From assembly GCF_030268965.1 (NCBI RefSeq), contig NZ_BSSE01000006.1:1-64000 (forward strand): DNA of 64,000 nt, given 5' to 3'. Position numbers and translations under genes: made by a program. The stretch is from Microtetraspora sp. NBRC 16547. Lineage in GTDB: Bacteria; Actinomycetota; Actinomycetes; Streptosporangiales; Streptosporangiaceae. Of this stretch, positions 6,434 to 14,568 are shown in pieces; positions within the stretch are counted from its first letter, which is position 1; each line of letters opens with the position of its first letter. The notes under the pieces were generated by a model that saw only the letters and a list, made by a program, of their open reading frames with translations, did no database searches and was not told the DNA's origin.

Positions 6434-6556
6434 ATGGCGACCGATGAGATCTTCTCTCGGCTCGACCTGGACGGTGACGGCCACCTCGCCCGCGACGAGT
6501 TCCGCACCCACTGGACAGAGTTCTGGGCAGGCGATGACCCGAACGCTCCCGGGCTG
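6434..6556 (+). pseudogene. EF-hand calcium-binding protein C-terminal fragment
   Basis: IFSRLDLDGDGHLARDEF is a clear EF-hand loop (D-x-D-x-D-G-H-L-x-x-x-E) and is followed by RTHWTEFWAGDDPNAPG, which resembles the end of secreted or cytosolic actinobacterial EF-hand proteins. Only one hand remains. Past about 6550 the frame no longer looks coding. Confidence 0.6.
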
Positions 6557-6784
6557 CGGATTCCCCGGCCCTCTCCGACCGTGACCTTCGTCGCGGCGAT
6601 CTCCTCCCCGTTGAGTGGTTTCAGAGTCGCTCAGCGCTTTGTCCAATGCATCCCAAATATGAGACTTGTCAGGTTTCTTTCTTGGTTCACCTTCGCTACA
6701 CGCGAGCGCAGCAGATCGTTTCACCTGCTGTGGTCTTTGTGATGCGGCAGTCGCCACTCCAGAACCACCTGAAACGGCAGAAAC
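6557..6784. promoter_or_regulatory. Leader of the giant phosphoesterase gene
   Basis: There is no gene here. A GTTCACC motif followed by TTCG (6685-6695) and a second TTTCACC (6719-6725) resemble half-sites of the actinobacterial PHO box, but they do not form a properly spaced tandem pair. No strong ribosome binding site is seen before the ATG at 6785. This is a weak hint of phosphate control only. Confidence 0.25.
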
Positions 6785-9700
6785 ATGACGCGCACCAGCG
6801 CACCACGAACACACACCTGGCCCGGTGCGATCACGGCGATCGCACTCGCAGCCGGCGCACTGGTCTGTGCACCGGCTTCGCCGGCCTCGGCGGCCGGCGA
6901 GGATCGGCCGACGTACCTCAACAGGTCCCTGTACACCGGCGAGTTCCACGCGCACACCTCCGTGAGTGACGGCGCCAAACTGCCGCCGGACGCCTACAAG
7001 CACGTCCATGACGAGACCGACGCCGACTTCTTCGCGGTGTCCGAGCACGACGTCATGTGGGACATCCGCAACGGCGACGACTTCATCGAGAACTGGCGGG
7101 ACGCCGACTCCGCCGAGTGGCGCTACCTCCACGAGAGCGCCGCGAAGTTCAATGCCGAGCAGGACGGCCTGGTCGCGGTCCCCGCGGTCGAGAACACCTG
7201 GTACGACGGCACCGGCCACATCAACGTGTTCAACAGCGACTGGCACGTGACGGCGCGGGCGACCGAGAAGGGCAGCGTCGACGGGTACGGCAACGTGTTC
7301 GGCACCGGCGACATGAAGTACGACTACTTCACGTTCCTGGCCCGCCTGAAGCAGGACCCGGACGTGATCGGCCAGTTCAACCACCCGTCCACCACGAGCA
7401 AGGGCGACTTCTTCGGCTTCAAGGGCCTTGACCCGGCCGCCGACGACCGGATGGCGCTCATCGAGGTCAAGTCCACCGATGCGGTGAACGAGTTCCAGAA
7501 GGCGCTGGACGCCGGCTGGCACCTGGCCCCGGTGTGGAACGGCGACGAGCACTCCGCGAACTGGGTGTCCGGGAACCCGTCGATCACCGGCGTGTGGGCC
7601 AAGGACCACTCCCTGGACGCCTTATACGCGGCGATGCGGGACCGCAGCCTCTACTCGACGGCCGACGTCAACGCGGTCCTCGCGTTCGGCGGCAACGGCA
7701 AGATCATGGGCACGGTCCTGCCGGGCGACACCACCAGCCTGGACGTCGAGCTCCGCCTCGCCGACCCGGACGCCAAGGACTCCTTCACCTCCGCGCGCCT
7801 CATCACCAACGGCGGCGCCGTCGCCCACGACTTCGGCAAGATCAGCGGCAACGACCTGACGCTGAAGACCAAGCTGGACGTCCGGGATGGCGACTTCTAC
7901 TACGTCCGCGCCGACCAGGCCGACGGCAACTTCCTGGTCTCCGCCCCGATCTGGATCGGGAAGACCACCCGCGGCGCGAACTACGCCCCGCGGATCACCG
8001 TGTCAGGCGATTTCCCCGCCACCGCGCAGTACGGTGACACGGTCACCCTGCCGAAGGTGACGGCCACCGACGACTCCGGCACCCAGCCCACGATCACGTT
8101 CGAGGTGTTCGACTCCGCGGGCAAGGTCCCGGTCTCCGGCGGTGCCTTCCGGATCCGCTCGTACGACGACGCGTTCGTGGTCGTGAAGGCGACCGACAAC
8201 CTCGGCAACACCAACGCCGAGATGCTCCGGATCCAGGTCTCCCAGGAGGCGCCGAACCCGGCGGGCGTCTTCCGCTTCGGCAGCAACGCGTCCGTGGGCG
8301 AGGTGCCCGGCGCCGCCGGCATCGCGGTCACCACCGACCGCGACGTCAAGCAGGTCTACGCACAGGTCCTGCCCGAGGGCTCGGACGACTGGTCCAAGGC
8401 CGATGTGCTGACCTCGACGAACGACCGCCCGTACGAGGTCAACACGGTCGGCAACGACGAGCCCGTCTACCAGCACTCCATCACTGGCCAGACGCTGCGC
8501 TCCCACGAGTTCCGGCTGACCGGGCTGAAGGTCGGCACGACGTACCGGTTCCGGTTCGGCGTGGCCCGCGACGGCCGTGCCCCCGCCCCTGCCGTCGAGT
8601 CGGCCTGGACCGGCGTACGGGGCAAGTTTCTCGCCGGCGGCGCCAAGGGGGAGCCGGTCTACATCCTGGGCGACATTCAGGTGCCCGACGGCAACGCCGA
8701 CGCCCTCACCCTGCCGGTGCGGGTGCTCGACCGGCTGAAGGGCCAGACGCCGGGCGGCGGTACCGTGATTCAGGTCGGCGACCTCGTCGACCGCGGAGGA
8801 CGGGGTGAGAAGTGGGCCGAGATCCACGGCTCCTTCCTGTCCGAACTCGACCTGCAATACGCGGGCGTGGTCGGCAACCACGAGACCTACGAGGACCTCG
8901 ACTACGACGCGGTCGGCAAGCAGCCGAGTGCGATCTTCACCAACATGTTCGCGCTGCCGCGCAACGGCGTGATCGGCGAGAGCAACTACTCCTTCGACCG
9001 CGGTGACATCCACTTCTCGGTGCTGAACTCCAACGTGCGCCTCGACGAGCAGCTCAAGTGGCTGGTCGACGACGTGCGCGCCTCGCACGCGACGTGGAAC
9101 GTCGTCGTCGGGCACTTCTCCTACTACGGCGGCCAGCACGCCGGCGACGGCGGCATGGACATCGACCGGGAGAAGGTCACGCGCGTGCTCGACCGGCTCG
9201 GCGTCGACCTGTACGTCGGCGGGCACGACCACGTCTACAAGCGGTCCACGATCTACGACGGGCGCTTGGCGAAGACCCCCGAGGAGGAGGCCGCAGGCAC
9301 CGCGTTCGTGACCATGGGGTCGTCCGGCCCGAAGTTCTACGACAACCAGCGGTTCTGGTGGGACGACAAGGTCTTCGACGAGAACGTCCAGATGGGCGGT
9401 GTCCTGAAGGCGACCGACGCCGGCCTGCAGCTGTCGACGTACACGATGGACGGGCGCCTGGTCGACGAGGTGACCGTCGCCAAACCGCGCGGTTCCTGGA
9501 AGGTCTCCTCGGCCGAGATCGAGAACCGTGAGCTGAAAGGTGTGGGTCTCCTGTCCTCCTCGGGCAGCCTGGACAAGGTCACCGTCATGGCCGCGACGTA
9601 CGACAACTCGCAGCAGCGGATGATCGACGTGCGTACCCTCGACGTCACCCTTGACCACCGCGGTCGCGAGCAGTACGTCCGCTTCGACACGCCGCTGCCG

Positions 9701-12700
9701 GTGGCGCCGAGCTCGACGGTCAAGCTGTTCACGTGGGACTCGCTGGCGTCCGGAAAGCCACTGCGGCCGGCCGTGACCCTGCGCGAGGGCCTGAGCGGTG
9801 AGGGCACCGAGAAGTCCCCGTACTTGATCGACTCGCCCGACGACCTGGCCAAGGTCGACAACGACCCGGCCAGTCACTACCGGCTCATCGCCGACCTGAA
9901 CCTGACCGGGCTCGACCGTGCTCAGATCGGTCGTACGACCAACTTCACGGGCGTCTTCGACGGCGACGGGCACACCATCTCCGGGCTGGCCGCCCTGGCC
10001 GACCAGGGGCCGGGCCTGTTCGCTGACAACCACGGCACGATCGAGGACCTGGTGGTCCAGGGCGACGTCACCACCGACCGTTCCACCGCCGGCCTGGTCG
10101 CCGACCAGAACCACGGCACGATCCAGCGGGTCCGCGTCGACGGGTCGCTGACCGCGAACAGCTACGTTGGCGGCATCACCGGCCACCATTTCGGCACCGT
10201 CCACGACAGCATCTCCACGGCGAACGTACGCGCGACGACCCAGTACGCCGGCGGTGTCGTCGGCGTCTCCGTCGGTGGGTCGGTCACCGAGAACGTCCTC
10301 GCCACCGGTGCGGTCCTCGCGAGCGGCTCATCCGCGGGCGGTGTGGCCGCCTACGGCTACACCGACACCCAGGTGAGCCACGCGGTCGCGTTGAACGCGA
10401 ACATCTCCGCGTCGAGCTACGCGCACGCCATCGTCGGTCGCGTCTACACCGGGCAGACCGCCACGCTCGAGGACAATCACGTCAGCCGTTCCGTGCCGAT
10501 CAGCGGGCAGTCGCTGACCGACCCGCCCGCGGCCGACAACCAGAAGGGCAATGTCGTCGCCCCCTCGGAGATCCAGCGGCAGGCCTTCTACGCGGAGCGC
10601 GGCTGGGACTTCGAGACCGTCTGGCAGTGGGACGACGTCGCCAAGCGCCCGACCCTGCGGATGGCGACGGAGACGCTCGAGCCGGTCCCGGCACCCGAAC
10701 TGCCGAAGGACGAGCGCGGCTTCTACGTCGTCGACAGCGTCGAGGACCTGATCCTGATGGGTAAGCACCCGTCCTACGACTACGTGCTCGCCGCCGACCT
10801 CGACCTGACCGGCACGCCGTTCACCAGCCCGCCGCAGCCGTTCATCGGCGAACTGGACGGCGCCGGCCACACCATCACGGGCCTGACCTCCACCACCGGT
10901 GGTCTGTTCGCCCAGATCTCCGGGCACGTCCACGACCTCGCGGTCCTCGACGCCAAGGTGAACACCACCACGGCTCGCGCTGGCATTCTGGCCAACAGCA
11001 GCACCGGCGCCATCGAGCGCGTGTGGGTCTCCGGGTCCGTGACCGCGGGCTCGCGTGCGGGCGGTCTCGTCGGTGACTCGCAGGGCATCGTGCGTGACGC
11101 CTACTCCACGGCGAACGTGCACGCGCTCGCCACCGAGGCGGGCGGCGTGATCGGCGTGGCCCTGGCCGGCTCCACCACGGAGCGGGTCTTCTCCACGGGC
11201 GCCGTCACAGCCGACGCCCGTAACGACGGTGGTGTGGTCGGCTACGGCTACACCGGCACCACCATCCGCGACTCGATCGCGCTCAACCCGACCGTCACCG
11301 CACCGTCCTGGGCGCACCGCTTCCTGGGCCGTGTGCTGGCGAACAACGTCGCCACGCTCAGTAACAACTGGGCGGCCGAGACCGTCGAGGCGAACTCGCA
11401 GGCCGAGACCGCGATCGGCCCGGCCACGCTCAACGGCGCCACCGCGACCCGAGACCAAACCGCCGACCAGGCCTTCTGGGCCGGCAAGCTCGGCTTCGAC
11501 TTCGAGTCGGCCTGGCAGTGGGACGCCGACGGCCGGCGGCCCGTTCTGCGCGCGGTGCCGGAGGACGTCCCGGCCGTCGAGGAGCCGGCCCCCGCGGGCC
11601 CGGCCCTGAAACGCGACACCGACGGCTTCTACCTCGTGCAGAAGCCCGGCGACCTCAAGGAACTGGCCGCGTACCCGTCCGAGCGGTTCCGCCTCACCGT
11701 GGACCTCGACCTGACCGGCATCGCCCGCATCACCCCGGCCTTCACGGGTGAGCTCGACGGCGCCGGCCACAACTTGACCGGGTACGCCTCCGCCGATGGC
11801 GGTCTGTTCGCCTCCGTCACCGGTCACGTCCGAGACCTGACCCTCGCTGACGCCTCCGTGCAGACGACCGCGGGGAACGTGGGCCTGCTCGCCGACCGCC
11901 TCGACGGCACCCTCGAGCGCGTCGCCACCACCGGCGCGATCGTCGGCAACACCACCGTCGGCGGCATCGTCGGGTACAGCTGTGGCATCCTGCGCGACGC
12001 ATGGTCCGCGGCCGGCGTCTCGACGAGCGGCGGCCGGTACGCCGGCGGCCTCATCGGCATCGCCGGCGGTGCCGCCCAGTGCGCCGCGACCACCGGCGGC
12101 AGCCTCACCGAGCGCACGTACGCGGCCGGCCCGGTCAACGCCGCCGGCAACCAGAGCGCCGGCGGTGTCAGCGGCTACGCCTACACCGGCACCACCATCC
12201 GTGACAACGTCGCCCTCAACCCGACGGTGACCGCGACCGGATGGGCGCACCGAATCGTCGCCCGCACCCTCAGCGGCGGCGCCCCGACCGTTGAGAACAA
12301 CCTCGCCTCCGAGACCGTGGTCGCCTCGGTGCAGAACATCGGAGACACCGCGCCGGAGAGCTTCAACGGCACCACCATCACCACCGCGCAGGCCGCCGAC
12401 CCGGCCACGTACACGTCGCTCAGGTGGGACCTGGAGAAGGTCTGGCAGTGGGACACCGGCCTCGGCCGACCGGTTCTGCGCGGCTCGACAACACCGGCCG
12501 CCAAGGCGACAGCGGCCGAACCCGCGGCTGCGAGGGAGACCGTCGCCGAGGCCGGAACGGTGCGGACCGTCGCATTCACCACCGCGGTCCCGCCGACGGC
12601 CGAGGCCACCGAGACCGGCGGCATCCACCACGAGGTGGTCGTAAACGACAACGGCACCGTCACGGTCACGGTGTCCGCCGGGACCGCCGCGGCGGCCAAG

Positions 12701-13216
12701 CAGTTGTCGTTCCTCCTGCTGAAGGCCGGCGCATCGACGTCGGCTCCGGCTGAGGACGACGTCGCCTACCTCGGAGAGGTCCGCCTCGACGAGCAGGGCA
12801 ACGCCACGGTCACCGTGCTCCTGAACCGGTCGGACGGGACGACCCTCGCGCTCAACACCTCCGGTGACACGGGGCGCTACGTCGCTTCGCTCCTCCCGCA
12901 GGAGCCCGGGACCCCGCCGATGAGTGTGCTGCACGACACCGTCACCGCCACGGTCAAGGCGAAGGAGAACGCCCCTGCTCAGGCGACGATCACCCTGGTC
13001 TGCGCCGGCGCGGAGAAGTGCCAGGAGCAGGTCACCATCCGCCACGACGGCCACCCTCTTGACACCAAGAAGGTCACGCTCCAGCCCGGCAAGACCCGCG
13101 ACCTGCAGCTCAACCTCCGCGACGAGGCCCGCGCCGCACTCCTCGCCGGCAGGTCTATCACCCTGGACGTCCAGATCGGCACGGCCTCGGCGGTCCAGGT
13201 GACCGTCACCCCGTGA
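6785..13216 (+). CDS. Giant secreted dual metallohydrolase (PHP + calcineurin phosphoesterase + 3 GLUG modules)
   Basis: The 2143-aa protein has a signal peptide (residues 1-37, ending ASPASAA). Residues 45-400 form a PHP/CehA-McbA-like metal hydrolase: GEFHAHTSVSDG, AVSEHD, AVENTW, FNHPS and NGDEHS supply the metal ligands. Around 400-620 are beta-rich linker domains. Residues 620-900 form a calcineurin-type phosphoesterase with GDIQVPD, GDLVDRGG, GNHET, GHFSYYGG and GGHDH. Three modules of about 290 residues follow (about 1005-1290, 1305-1585, 1610-1895). Each has a DLDLTG start, GLUG-like GG(L/I)VG repeats and a WxWDxxxxRPxLR end. A last beta domain closes the protein. Substrate is unknown, but phosphoesters outside the cell are likely. 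The gene stands alone between two tRNA-Phe scars. Confidence 0.85.
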   Translation: MTRTSAPRTHTWPGAITAIALAAGALVCAPASPASAAGEDRPTYLNRSLYTGEFHAHTSVSDGAKLPPDAYKHVHDETDADFFAVSEHDVMWDIRNGDDFIENWRDADSAEWRYLHESAAKFNAEQDGLVAVPAVENTWYDGTGHINVFNSDWHVTARATEKGSVDGYGNVFGTGDMKYDYFTFLARLKQDPDVIGQFNHPSTTSKGDFFGFKGLDPAADDRMALIEVKSTDAVNEFQKALDAGWHLAPVWNGDEHSANWVSGNPSITGVWAKDHSLDALYAAMRDRSLYSTADVNAVLAFGGNGKIMGTVLPGDTTSLDVELRLADPDAKDSFTSARLITNGGAVAHDFGKISGNDLTLKTKLDVRDGDFYYVRADQADGNFLVSAPIWIGKTTRGANYAPRITVSGDFPATAQYGDTVTLPKVTATDDSGTQPTITFEVFDSAGKVPVSGGAFRIRSYDDAFVVVKATDNLGNTNAEMLRIQVSQEAPNPAGVFRFGSNASVGEVPGAAGIAVTTDRDVKQVYAQVLPEGSDDWSKADVLTSTNDRPYEVNTVGNDEPVYQHSITGQTLRSHEFRLTGLKVGTTYRFRFGVARDGRAPAPAVESAWTGVRGKFLAGGAKGEPVYILGDIQVPDGNADALTLPVRVLDRLKGQTPGGGTVIQVGDLVDRGGRGEKWAEIHGSFLSELDLQYAGVVGNHETYEDLDYDAVGKQPSAIFTNMFALPRNGVIGESNYSFDRGDIHFSVLNSNVRLDEQLKWLVDDVRASHATWNVVVGHFSYYGGQHAGDGGMDIDREKVTRVLDRLGVDLYVGGHDHVYKRSTIYDGRLAKTPEEEAAGTAFVTMGSSGPKFYDNQRFWWDDKVFDENVQMGGVLKATDAGLQLSTYTMDGRLVDEVTVAKPRGSWKVSSAEIENRELKGVGLLSSSGSLDKVTVMAATYDNSQQRMIDVRTLDVTLDHRGREQYVRFDTPLPVAPSSTVKLFTWDSLASGKPLRPAVTLREGLSGEGTEKSPYLIDSPDDLAKVDNDPASHYRLIADLNLTGLDRAQIGRTTNFTGVFDGDGHTISGLAALADQGPGLFADNHGTIEDLVVQGDVTTDRSTAGLVADQNHGTIQRVRVDGSLTANSYVGGITGHHFGTVHDSISTANVRATTQYAGGVVGVSVGGSVTENVLATGAVLASGSSAGGVAAYGYTDTQVSHAVALNANISASSYAHAIVGRVYTGQTATLEDNHVSRSVPISGQSLTDPPAADNQKGNVVAPSEIQRQAFYAERGWDFETVWQWDDVAKRPTLRMATETLEPVPAPELPKDERGFYVVDSVEDLILMGKHPSYDYVLAADLDLTGTPFTSPPQPFIGELDGAGHTITGLTSTTGGLFAQISGHVHDLAVLDAKVNTTTARAGILANSSTGAIERVWVSGSVTAGSRAGGLVGDSQGIVRDAYSTANVHALATEAGGVIGVALAGSTTERVFSTGAVTADARNDGGVVGYGYTGTTIRDSIALNPTVTAPSWAHRFLGRVLANNVATLSNNWAAETVEANSQAETAIGPATLNGATATRDQTADQAFWAGKLGFDFESAWQWDADGRRPVLRAVPEDVPAVEEPAPAGPALKRDTDGFYLVQKPGDLKELAAYPSERFRLTVDLDLTGIARITPAFTGELDGAGHNLTGYASADGGLFASVTGHVRDLTLADASVQTTAGNVGLLADRLDGTLERVATTGAIVGNTTVGGIVGYSCGILRDAWSAAGVSTSGGRYAGGLIGIAGGAAQCAATTGGSLTERTYAAGPVNAAGNQSAGGVSGYAYTGTTIRDNVALNPTVTATGWAHRIVARTLSGGAPTVENNLASETVVASVQNIGDTAPESFNGTTITTAQAADPATYTSLRWDLEKVWQWDTGLGRPVLRGSTTPAAKATAAEPAAARETVAEAGTVRTVAFTTAVPPTAEATETGGIHHEVVVNDNGTVTVTVSAGTAAAAKQLSFLLLKAGASTSAPAEDDVAYLGEVRLDEQGNATVTVLLNRSDGTTLALNTSGDTGRYVASLLPQEPGTPPMSVLHDTVTATVKAKENAPAQATITLVCAGAEKCQEQVTIRHDGHPLDTKKVTLQPGKTRDLQLNLRDEARAALLAGRSITLDVQIGTASAVQVTVTP

Positions 13217-13623: not shown

Positions 13624-14568
13624 ATGCCCTTGACCGCGAAGGACGTCGACCGGTTCGAGGCCTTCAGGCCGCGCTTGGAGGCCATCGCCTACCGCCTCCT
13701 CGGCTCCGCCGGGGAGGCCGAGGACGCCGTGCAGGAGACGTTCCTGCGCTGGCAGGCCGCCGACGTCGACCGCATCGAGGTCCCCGAGGCCTGGCTGACG
13801 AAGGTCCTCACCAACCTGTGCCTCAACCAGCTCACCTCCGCGCGGGCGCGCCGCGAGACCTATGTGGGCCAATGGCTTCCCGAGCCGCTGCTCGCCGGGG
13901 ACCCGATGCTCGGCCCGGCCGACACCGCCGAGCAGCGCGAATCGGTCTCGTACGCGGTCCTCACCCTCATGGAGCGCCTCTCCCCCAACGAGCGGGCGGT
14001 GTACGTGCTGCGGGAGGCCTTCGACTACCCGCATCGGGAGATCGCCGAGATCCTCGACATCACCGAGGCCGCCAGCCAGCAGATCTTCCACCGTGCCAAG
14101 AAGCACGTCGCGGACGGCAAGGCCCGCACCGAGGTCGACGAGGCCGCCGCCCGGCGGATCGTCGAGGAGTTCCTGGCGGCCGCCACCAGCGGCCGGATCG
14201 ATCCGCTCGTGCGTCTGCTCACCGAGGACGCCATCGCGATCGGCGACGGTGGCGGGAAGGTCCCGGCCCGCGCCAAGGCGTTCGAGGGTGCCGTCGCGGT
14301 GGCGAAGTTCCTGTGGGGCCTGCTCAAACCCGGCGCGGCCAAGCGCGCCTTGGTCGGCGGCTCGGCCGAGGTCTACGCCTGGACCGCCAACGGCGAACCC
14401 GCCGTCGTGGCCGCCGTGGACGGCCGGGTCGTCGGCGTCATGTGCCTGGAGGTCACCGCCGAGGGCGTCGCCGCGTCCCGCATCCAGGTCAACCCCGACA
14501 AGCTCGAGCGCGCGACCGCGCACTGGGCGGCCGCCGACCACGGGGAGCCGCTGTTCAACGCCTTCTGA
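13624..14568 (+). CDS. sigJ: ECF41-type sigma factor (SigJ-like)
   Basis: Residues 10-75 hold sigma region 2 (AYRLLGSAGEAEDAVQETFL) and about 110-160 hold region 4 (LSPNERAVYVLREAFDYPH followed by REIAEILDITEAASQQ). The C-terminal 130 residues form the SnoaL-like extension that marks ECF41 factors and tunes their activity in place of an anti-sigma factor. Length (314 aa) is standard. The next gene, 93 bases on, is an FAD oxidoreductase. ECF41 factors usually drive one neighbouring redox-type gene, so this is a likely regulator-target pair. Confidence 0.88.
   Translation: MPLTAKDVDRFEAFRPRLEAIAYRLLGSAGEAEDAVQETFLRWQAADVDRIEVPEAWLTKVLTNLCLNQLTSARARRETYVGQWLPEPLLAGDPMLGPADTAEQRESVSYAVLTLMERLSPNERAVYVLREAFDYPHREIAEILDITEAASQQIFHRAKKHVADGKARTEVDEAAARRIVEEFLAAATSGRIDPLVRLLTEDAIAIGDGGGKVPARAKAFEGAVAVAKFLWGLLKPGAAKRALVGGSAEVYAWTANGEPAVVAAVDGRVVGVMCLEVTAEGVAASRIQVNPDKLERATAHWAAADHGEPLFNAF

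Follow-up and report, generated by a model that had tools for sequence, protein, structure and literature searches.

Architecture of the encoded protein

The subject of this report is a gene in a 64,000-nucleotide stretch of Microtetraspora sp. NBRC 16547 (contig NZ_BSSE01000006.1, positions 1 to 64,000; hereafter the window) that encodes a single polypeptide of 2143 residues with two different metallohydrolase domains. The gene occupies positions 6785–13216 of the forward strand, and its open reading frame was confirmed as proposed in an earlier sequence-only reading. That reading had described an exported chain carrying a PHP site, a calcineurin-type site and three GLUG modules; every motif quoted for the two domains is present, and both sites are complete. 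Residues 1–37 (6785–6895) form a probable Sec signal peptide, assigned by eye from the sequence; similar hydrophobic N-terminal stretches occur in many orthologs.

The first catalytic unit is a PHP (CehA/McbA-like) metallohydrolase domain (residues 44–395; 6914–7969), defined by profile, ligand alignment and model. It is followed by an Ig-like linker domain (residues 396–500; 7970–8284), recognized from β-strands in the model and from domain-wise ortholog identity, and by a purple acid phosphatase (PAP) N-terminal, FnIII-like domain (residues 501–618; 8285–8638), which is supported by the model and by a weak Pfam match at 518–596 (E 0.0018). The second catalytic unit is a PAP-fold metallophosphoesterase (residues 622–900; 8648–9484), defined by Pfam, ligand alignment and model. 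A β-rich domain in the AlphaFold2 model (residues 901–1001; 9485–9787) leads to three GLUG modules at residues ∼1002–1300 (9788–10684), ∼1319–1600 (10739–11584) and ∼1615–1905 (11627–12499), all placed by module alignment and the first also by a model. Several orthologs are without module 3. The C-terminal region (residues 1915–2143; 12527–13213) was delimited by its match to separate downstream genes elsewhere.

Occurrence of the fusion in other genomes

We scanned 84,980 species genomes with two PHP peptide patterns, a search that misses remote fusions, relatives with the phosphoesterase only and PHP motifs that have diverged, and found 27 related loci with 51–94% identity. At 23 of them a single frame encodes both domains in the order seen here, so the combination is not a chance one; the other four are two frameshifted genes (L082 and L087) and two fragments (L086 and L088). 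The sequence-only reading had proposed a search for this architecture in other genomes; the pair holds at those 23 loci, and the number of GLUG modules ranges from zero to three. The actinobacterial loci belong to Streptosporangiaceae, Asanoa, Nocardioides, Jiangella, Haloactinopolyspora, Actinopolymorpha, Georgenia, Ornithinimicrobium, Frigoribacterium, Microbacterium and a Ruania metagenome-assembled genome (MAG), and the single locus outside Actinomycetota is that of Cohnella lupini (Bacillota; 66% identity). An ortholog in a genome of the same genus is 94% identical over the full length, and the locus is also present in Microtetraspora niveoalba.

Searches of family, class, phylum and same-genus genomes scored two to six candidates per genome. 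In the family, 13 of 250 genomes matched (E 1e-15): nine encode the PHP–phosphoesterase pair in a single frame, one has it split between two frames and three have fragments or relics. In the class, 15 of 394 genomes matched, three with the phosphoesterase only. In the phylum sample, 24 of 396 genomes matched (E 1e-10), with both domains in one match only in the window's own genome. The gene is broken or present as short relics in several Streptosporangiaceae (L005 in G002, L086, L088, G536 and G610), for example as 48 residues at 92% identity in a same-genus genome, which suggests frequent loss. Viral contigs scanned with the single protein yielded no relatives. The literature that we searched describes neither a PHP–metallophosphoesterase fusion nor a characterized protein of this architecture, many of which would have spoken against the sequence-only reading.

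The PHP domain

Residues 38–1001 were modelled with AlphaFold2 from a 23-row alignment (the window and 22 loci; all but L071, L082, L086, L087 and L088), giving a mean pLDDT of 81.9; model residue numbers plus 37 give protein numbers, and folds were compared on AlphaFold2 models with VIA-align 2. Structure prediction of both catalytic domains had been suggested as a check on the sequence-only reading; the models show a PHP fold for the first and a PAP fold for the second. Model residues 1–300 superpose on the PHP structure BVU_3505 (3e38) with Z 17.8 and an rmsd of 3.6 over 220 aligned residues, and a second PHP structure, 2anu, gives Z 16.6. The PHP domain has no match up to E 10 among the sequences in the PDB; the fold match comes from the model alone.

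The PHP motifs are GEFHAHTSVSDG at 52–63, SEHD at 86–89, FNHPS at 198–202 and NGDEHS at 252–257. From these motifs we assigned the likely ligands His55, His57, Asp62, His88, Glu136, His145, His200, Asp254 and His256. None of the nine positions varies among the 25 aligned homologs; the ligand counts here and below cover 25 of the 27 loci, that is, all but L086 and L088, which are broken early. The NCBIfam profile CehA_McbA_metalo (NF038032) aligns nearly over its full length (residues 50–391 against model positions 3–314/315, E 6.8e-21), but the score of 75.0 bits misses the curated cut-off of 80 bits. Four orthologs gave 81.7 (Jiangella), which passes, and 75.2, 77.1 and 63.9, which fail. Because the window protein lies under the cut-off, we call the domain CehA/McbA-like and do not file it as a family member. 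It shares the PHP motifs with that family and differs from it in being fused to a PAP-fold domain.

The PAP-fold phosphoesterase domain

The calcineurin-type motifs GDIQVPD, GDLVDRGG, GNHE and GGHDH are all present, and the Pfam family Metallophos (PF00149) matches residues 624–818 with E 2.9e-17 and 64.1 bits, above the cut-off of 21.5. The site consists of Asp630, Gln632, Asp666, Asp669, Asn698, His699, His777, His785, His814 and His816. Many calcineurin-type enzymes have a histidine at the position of the glutamine in GDIQ; the glutamine is found in all six phosphoesterase rows compared. The closest fold is that of purple acid phosphatase, model residues 453–863 aligning with the sweet potato enzyme (1xzw) at Z 33.6 and an rmsd of 3.2 over 357 residues. 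The likeness to plant-type PAPs (1xzw, 1kbp and the wheat phytase 6git; Z 28.5–33.6) covers both the N-terminal domain and the catalytic fold. Asp630, Asp666, Asn698, His777, His814 and His816 fit six of the seven PAP metal ligands.

The PAP N-terminal and phosphoesterase pair is also found behind another enzyme. Two proteins encoded on Bacillota plasmids, of Metabacillus and Pseudobutyrivibrio (L032:5830-9948 and L034:2440-8652), are likewise long chains with this pair, but their first enzyme is a phosphodiester glycosidase (NAGPA) where the window protein has PHP. The partner of the PAP-type domain can therefore change. The window's own genome also encodes a separate metallophosphoesterase paralog (G000:C14:101197-101568) with 33% identity.

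Decay of the second active site in one clade

Loss of metal ligands in either domain had been named as a finding that would count against the sequence-only reading. None is lost in the window protein; one lineage of orthologs has lost them. The phosphoesterase ligand set is intact in 19 of 25 homologs, changed in five (three Jiangella, Haloactinopolyspora and Actinopolymorpha) and out of frame in one. Further genomes added five more proteins with a lost phosphoesterase site (four of the nine rows in that set were identical to proteins already counted), making ten distinct proteins with a highest mutual identity of 92.8%; six further Streptosporangiaceae rows have an intact site. The substitutions in the decayed sites are Q632A, D669P/A, N698D, H699A/G/T, H785G/A and H816N/D/E/Q, and Asp630 itself is deleted in three of the ten. 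In Haloactinopolyspora (L062) motif V lies past a frameshift, and the next frame reads GGHDN. Aspartate in place of asparagine or histidine could still hold a metal, and the other decayed sites may be changed and not dead.

Nine of the ten proteins with a decayed phosphoesterase site keep the PHP site intact. The tenth (L058:1-1500, Jiangella-like) has an IS transposase-like stretch in place of PHP, with the phosphoesterase–GLUG half still open. In separate PHP and phosphoesterase trees, from which L082 and L087 were also left out, the four named open-frame members of the decayed group form one clade with support of 100 in each. Within this clade, divergence of the phosphoesterase is 1.81 times that of PHP, compared with 0.96, 0.80 and 0.93 in three other groups. 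The phosphoesterase/PHP ratio of dN is 1.7–2.6 in four pairs of the decayed clade and 0.4–1.7 in ten other pairs, so that the ranges touch; only dN was used, the dS values from an experimental Biopython routine being erratic. With the second site decayed and PHP intact in nine proteins, the PHP head seems essential and the second one dispensable. This clade, Jiangellaceae/Actinopolymorpha, led us to reject obligatory two-step action as a general rule. It also offers a natural experiment on fused enzymes, as one lineage dropped the ligands of the second site and kept those of the first, so that fully fused and half-dead proteins could be set side by side on identical substrates.

The same decay bears on a reading in which the two heads are independent broad-range hydrolases on one rod, with no hand-over of substrate, so that either can be lost. 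Loss of the PAP-type site beside an intact PHP site agrees with it, as does the pairing of the PAP-type domain with NAGPA in the two plasmid proteins. It is at odds with the conserved one-frame order at 23 of the 27 loci, a count from a PHP-based scan that overlooks phosphoesterase-only relatives. We regard independent heads as unlikely, while giving them more weight than any other alternative.

Upstream repeats and proposed function

Streptomyces PhoP binds 11-nt direct repeats with a most conserved core, GTTCACC, and weak third units occur (PMC4415409, PMC6283541 and PMC7244524). A candidate PHO box of four 11-nt units, GTTCACCTTCG CTACACGCGAG CGCAGCAGATC GTTTCACCTGC, lies at 6685–6728 on the forward strand, between 100 and 57 nt upstream of the start codon. 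The 3′ end of a short open reading frame at 6434–6742, which contains an EF-hand-like DLDGDGHLARDEF motif by eye, overlaps it. Promoters were compared for the window and 23 loci (all but L082, L086, L087 and L088), with start codons chosen by hand; L077, L079, L081, L083 and L085 have no ATG or an unclear start, and their windows are shifted. GTTCA[CT][CT] occurs on the coding strand within 140 nt of 17 of the 24 genes, at a background probability of 0.048 each, and on the other strand of none. Around 13 sites, four of which are from Streptosporangiaceae, the resemblance to GTTCACC peaks at offsets +33 and +11 among the 76 compared, followed by +34 and −11. The two-unit score peaks at a spacing of 11 (10.43) among spacings of 7–44, the next value being 9.57 at 33. 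A score of at least 11 is reached by eight of 14 lineage representatives compared with 0.7% of 840 control windows. Without the window lineage (13 representatives) the Fisher p value is 8e-10, and it is 1e-6 when the worse-scoring of two members stands for each genus; shared ancestry makes both values optimistic. As a positive control, pstS of the same genome has GTTCACTGCCC GTTCACCTTTA ACAGGGGATTA AGTCACCTTGA in the same 0, +11, +33 layout. GTTCACC-like 11-nt direct repeats, a mark of the Pho regulon, are found upstream in most but not all lineages. From these repeats and the pstS layout we predict induction by phosphate starvation. A regulatory RNA upstream was considered and rejected, the Rfam match being a chance one (11.1 bits, where the gathering score is 45).

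Phosphate control, export and the PHP and PAP-fold sites together fit the scavenging of organic phosphate. The protein probably belongs to the Pho regulon as an enzyme that is exported, acts at the surface and scavenges organophosphates; in it PHP would perform the core cleavage and the PAP-like head, where alive, would free phosphate from the product. Under low phosphate, PhoP would bind the direct repeats and switch the gene on, and the chain would leave the cell by Sec. The PHP head would then carry out the central step, most likely the cleavage of a phosphodiester, by analogy with Sb-PDE and similar PHP enzymes. The PAP-fold head, whose site is complete in the window protein, would most likely remove phosphate from the resulting monoester, while the GLUG β-helices and the C-terminal domain would hold both heads at a polymer or surface. 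Sb-PDE of Sphingobium TCM1 is described in PMC5460133 as a secreted zinc enzyme of the PHP superfamily that hydrolyses phosphodiesters and also a monoester, with lower kcat/Km. It has 441 residues and a PHP domain only, and we liken it to the window protein by this description and not by sequence. The sequence-only reading had proposed two consecutive phosphoesterase chemistries; the phosphate-related role gains support from the upstream repeats and the pstS layout, and a necessary pairing of the two is not supported. Among the substrates that it named (teichoic acid, phospholipid headgroup and nucleic acid) the evidence favours none.

Several observations weigh against this assignment. The metal-binding tyrosine of PAPs, part of a GDxxY motif, is replaced by Asp669 (GDLVD) in the window protein, so a purple Fe(III)–tyrosinate is not expected. 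The repeat was noticed by eye in Streptosporangiaceae promoters before it was tested. No PHO-type repeat was found upstream in Cohnella or the Ruania MAG, and the repeat is weak in J. asiatica and marginal in two Nocardioides (p 0.088 and 0.084). In the window's own genome, two phoD-like genes and the phosphoesterase paralog have no strong repeat upstream, and the exact two-unit pattern matches only once, beside no recognized Pho gene. A comparison of flanking open reading frames (the window and 11 of the 27 loci, with L070 not covered and L068 and L073 partly covered) showed no neighbour that recurs consistently from genus to genus, apart from the downstream gene for the C-terminal domain. 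With no supporting partner gene among the flanking frames listed, a function drawn from an operon or neighbourhood was rejected. The main reason for doubt is that CehA and McbA themselves are carbamate esterases (PMC8292978), so that a PHP site is no guarantee of phosphate chemistry.

The last point opens an alternative in which the PHP head is a carbamate or carboxylester hydrolase, with phosphate chemistry left to the PAP-type head only. CehA/McbA being the best curated family match favours it, and the window promoter points to phosphate and not to carbamates. Jiangella muralis has a strong 11-nt repeat (p 0.002) despite its degraded phosphoesterase site, which suggests that the PHP head by itself warrants control by phosphate. 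On this evidence we consider a carbamate- or carboxylester-cleaving PHP head improbable. CehA/McbA-like PHP proteins take their name from pesticide hydrolases, and phosphate scavenging offers them a testable physiological role, in phosphate starvation. Tentatively, we go further and propose a class of two-headed phosphate harvesters, not described before, that would work at the surface under Pho control and may have moved among actinobacterial families and into Bacillota. In this class a CehA/McbA-like PHP phosphodiesterase would be obligatory and the PAP-fold head an optional second step, which in Jiangellaceae/Actinopolymorpha would be a pseudoenzyme, perhaps one that binds substrate.

GLUG modules, C-terminal region and neighbouring genes

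The three GLUG modules align with each other, and each closes with the motif WQWD....RP.LR (1280–1292, 1577–1589 and 1887–1899), as had been noted from the sequence. The Pfam family Glug (PF07581) is below threshold in the window protein (16.3 bits against 20.5); two of four orthologs exceed the cut-off, at 40.3 and 33.9 bits, and the others have no match at E 0.01. No GLUG match was found in the window's own genome at E 0.001. Module 1 was modelled with a pLDDT of 93.2 as a β-helix that superposes on BACOVA_03286 (3n6z) with Z 37.7 and an rmsd of 2.4 over 287 residues, and on IgA1 proteases with Z 23.4–26.9. The β-helix is shared with the GLUG region of M26 IgA1 proteases; the window protein differs in having three tandem modules and no match to any Pfam protease family. 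In the homologs, zero to three modules align with those of the window protein. The Actinopolymorpha protein ends after the phosphoesterase, with nothing GLUG-like 3′ of it in three frames, and the Cohnella ortholog has SLH repeats at its C-terminal end. Anchoring by GLUG is possible, yet one member does without GLUG and another has added SLH domains. A role as a surface adhesin, with the one-time enzyme domains now used for binding, would fit the resemblance to IgA1 proteases and the apparent pseudoenzyme in one clade, but is very unlikely given the strictly kept ligand positions (PHP 25/25, PAP-type 19/25).

In Georgenia, Ornithinimicrobium and two Microbacterium, a separate gene immediately downstream has a product that looks secreted and matches residues ∼1931–2044 (L085:13498-14253, L078:13560-14126, L080:13484-14107 and L081:13611-14240). 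Three of the four are 34–41% identical to the window protein, and the fourth matches orthologs. Directly 3′ of the gene in the window, a SigJ/SigX4-type ECF sigma factor lies at 13624–14568; among the other loci it has a single match, 50% identical, which lies at L084:14108-15052 and runs on the opposite strand. The downstream gene of Microbacterium L085 ends with LATTG, a hydrophobic stretch and RRR, by eye a sortase-like tail.

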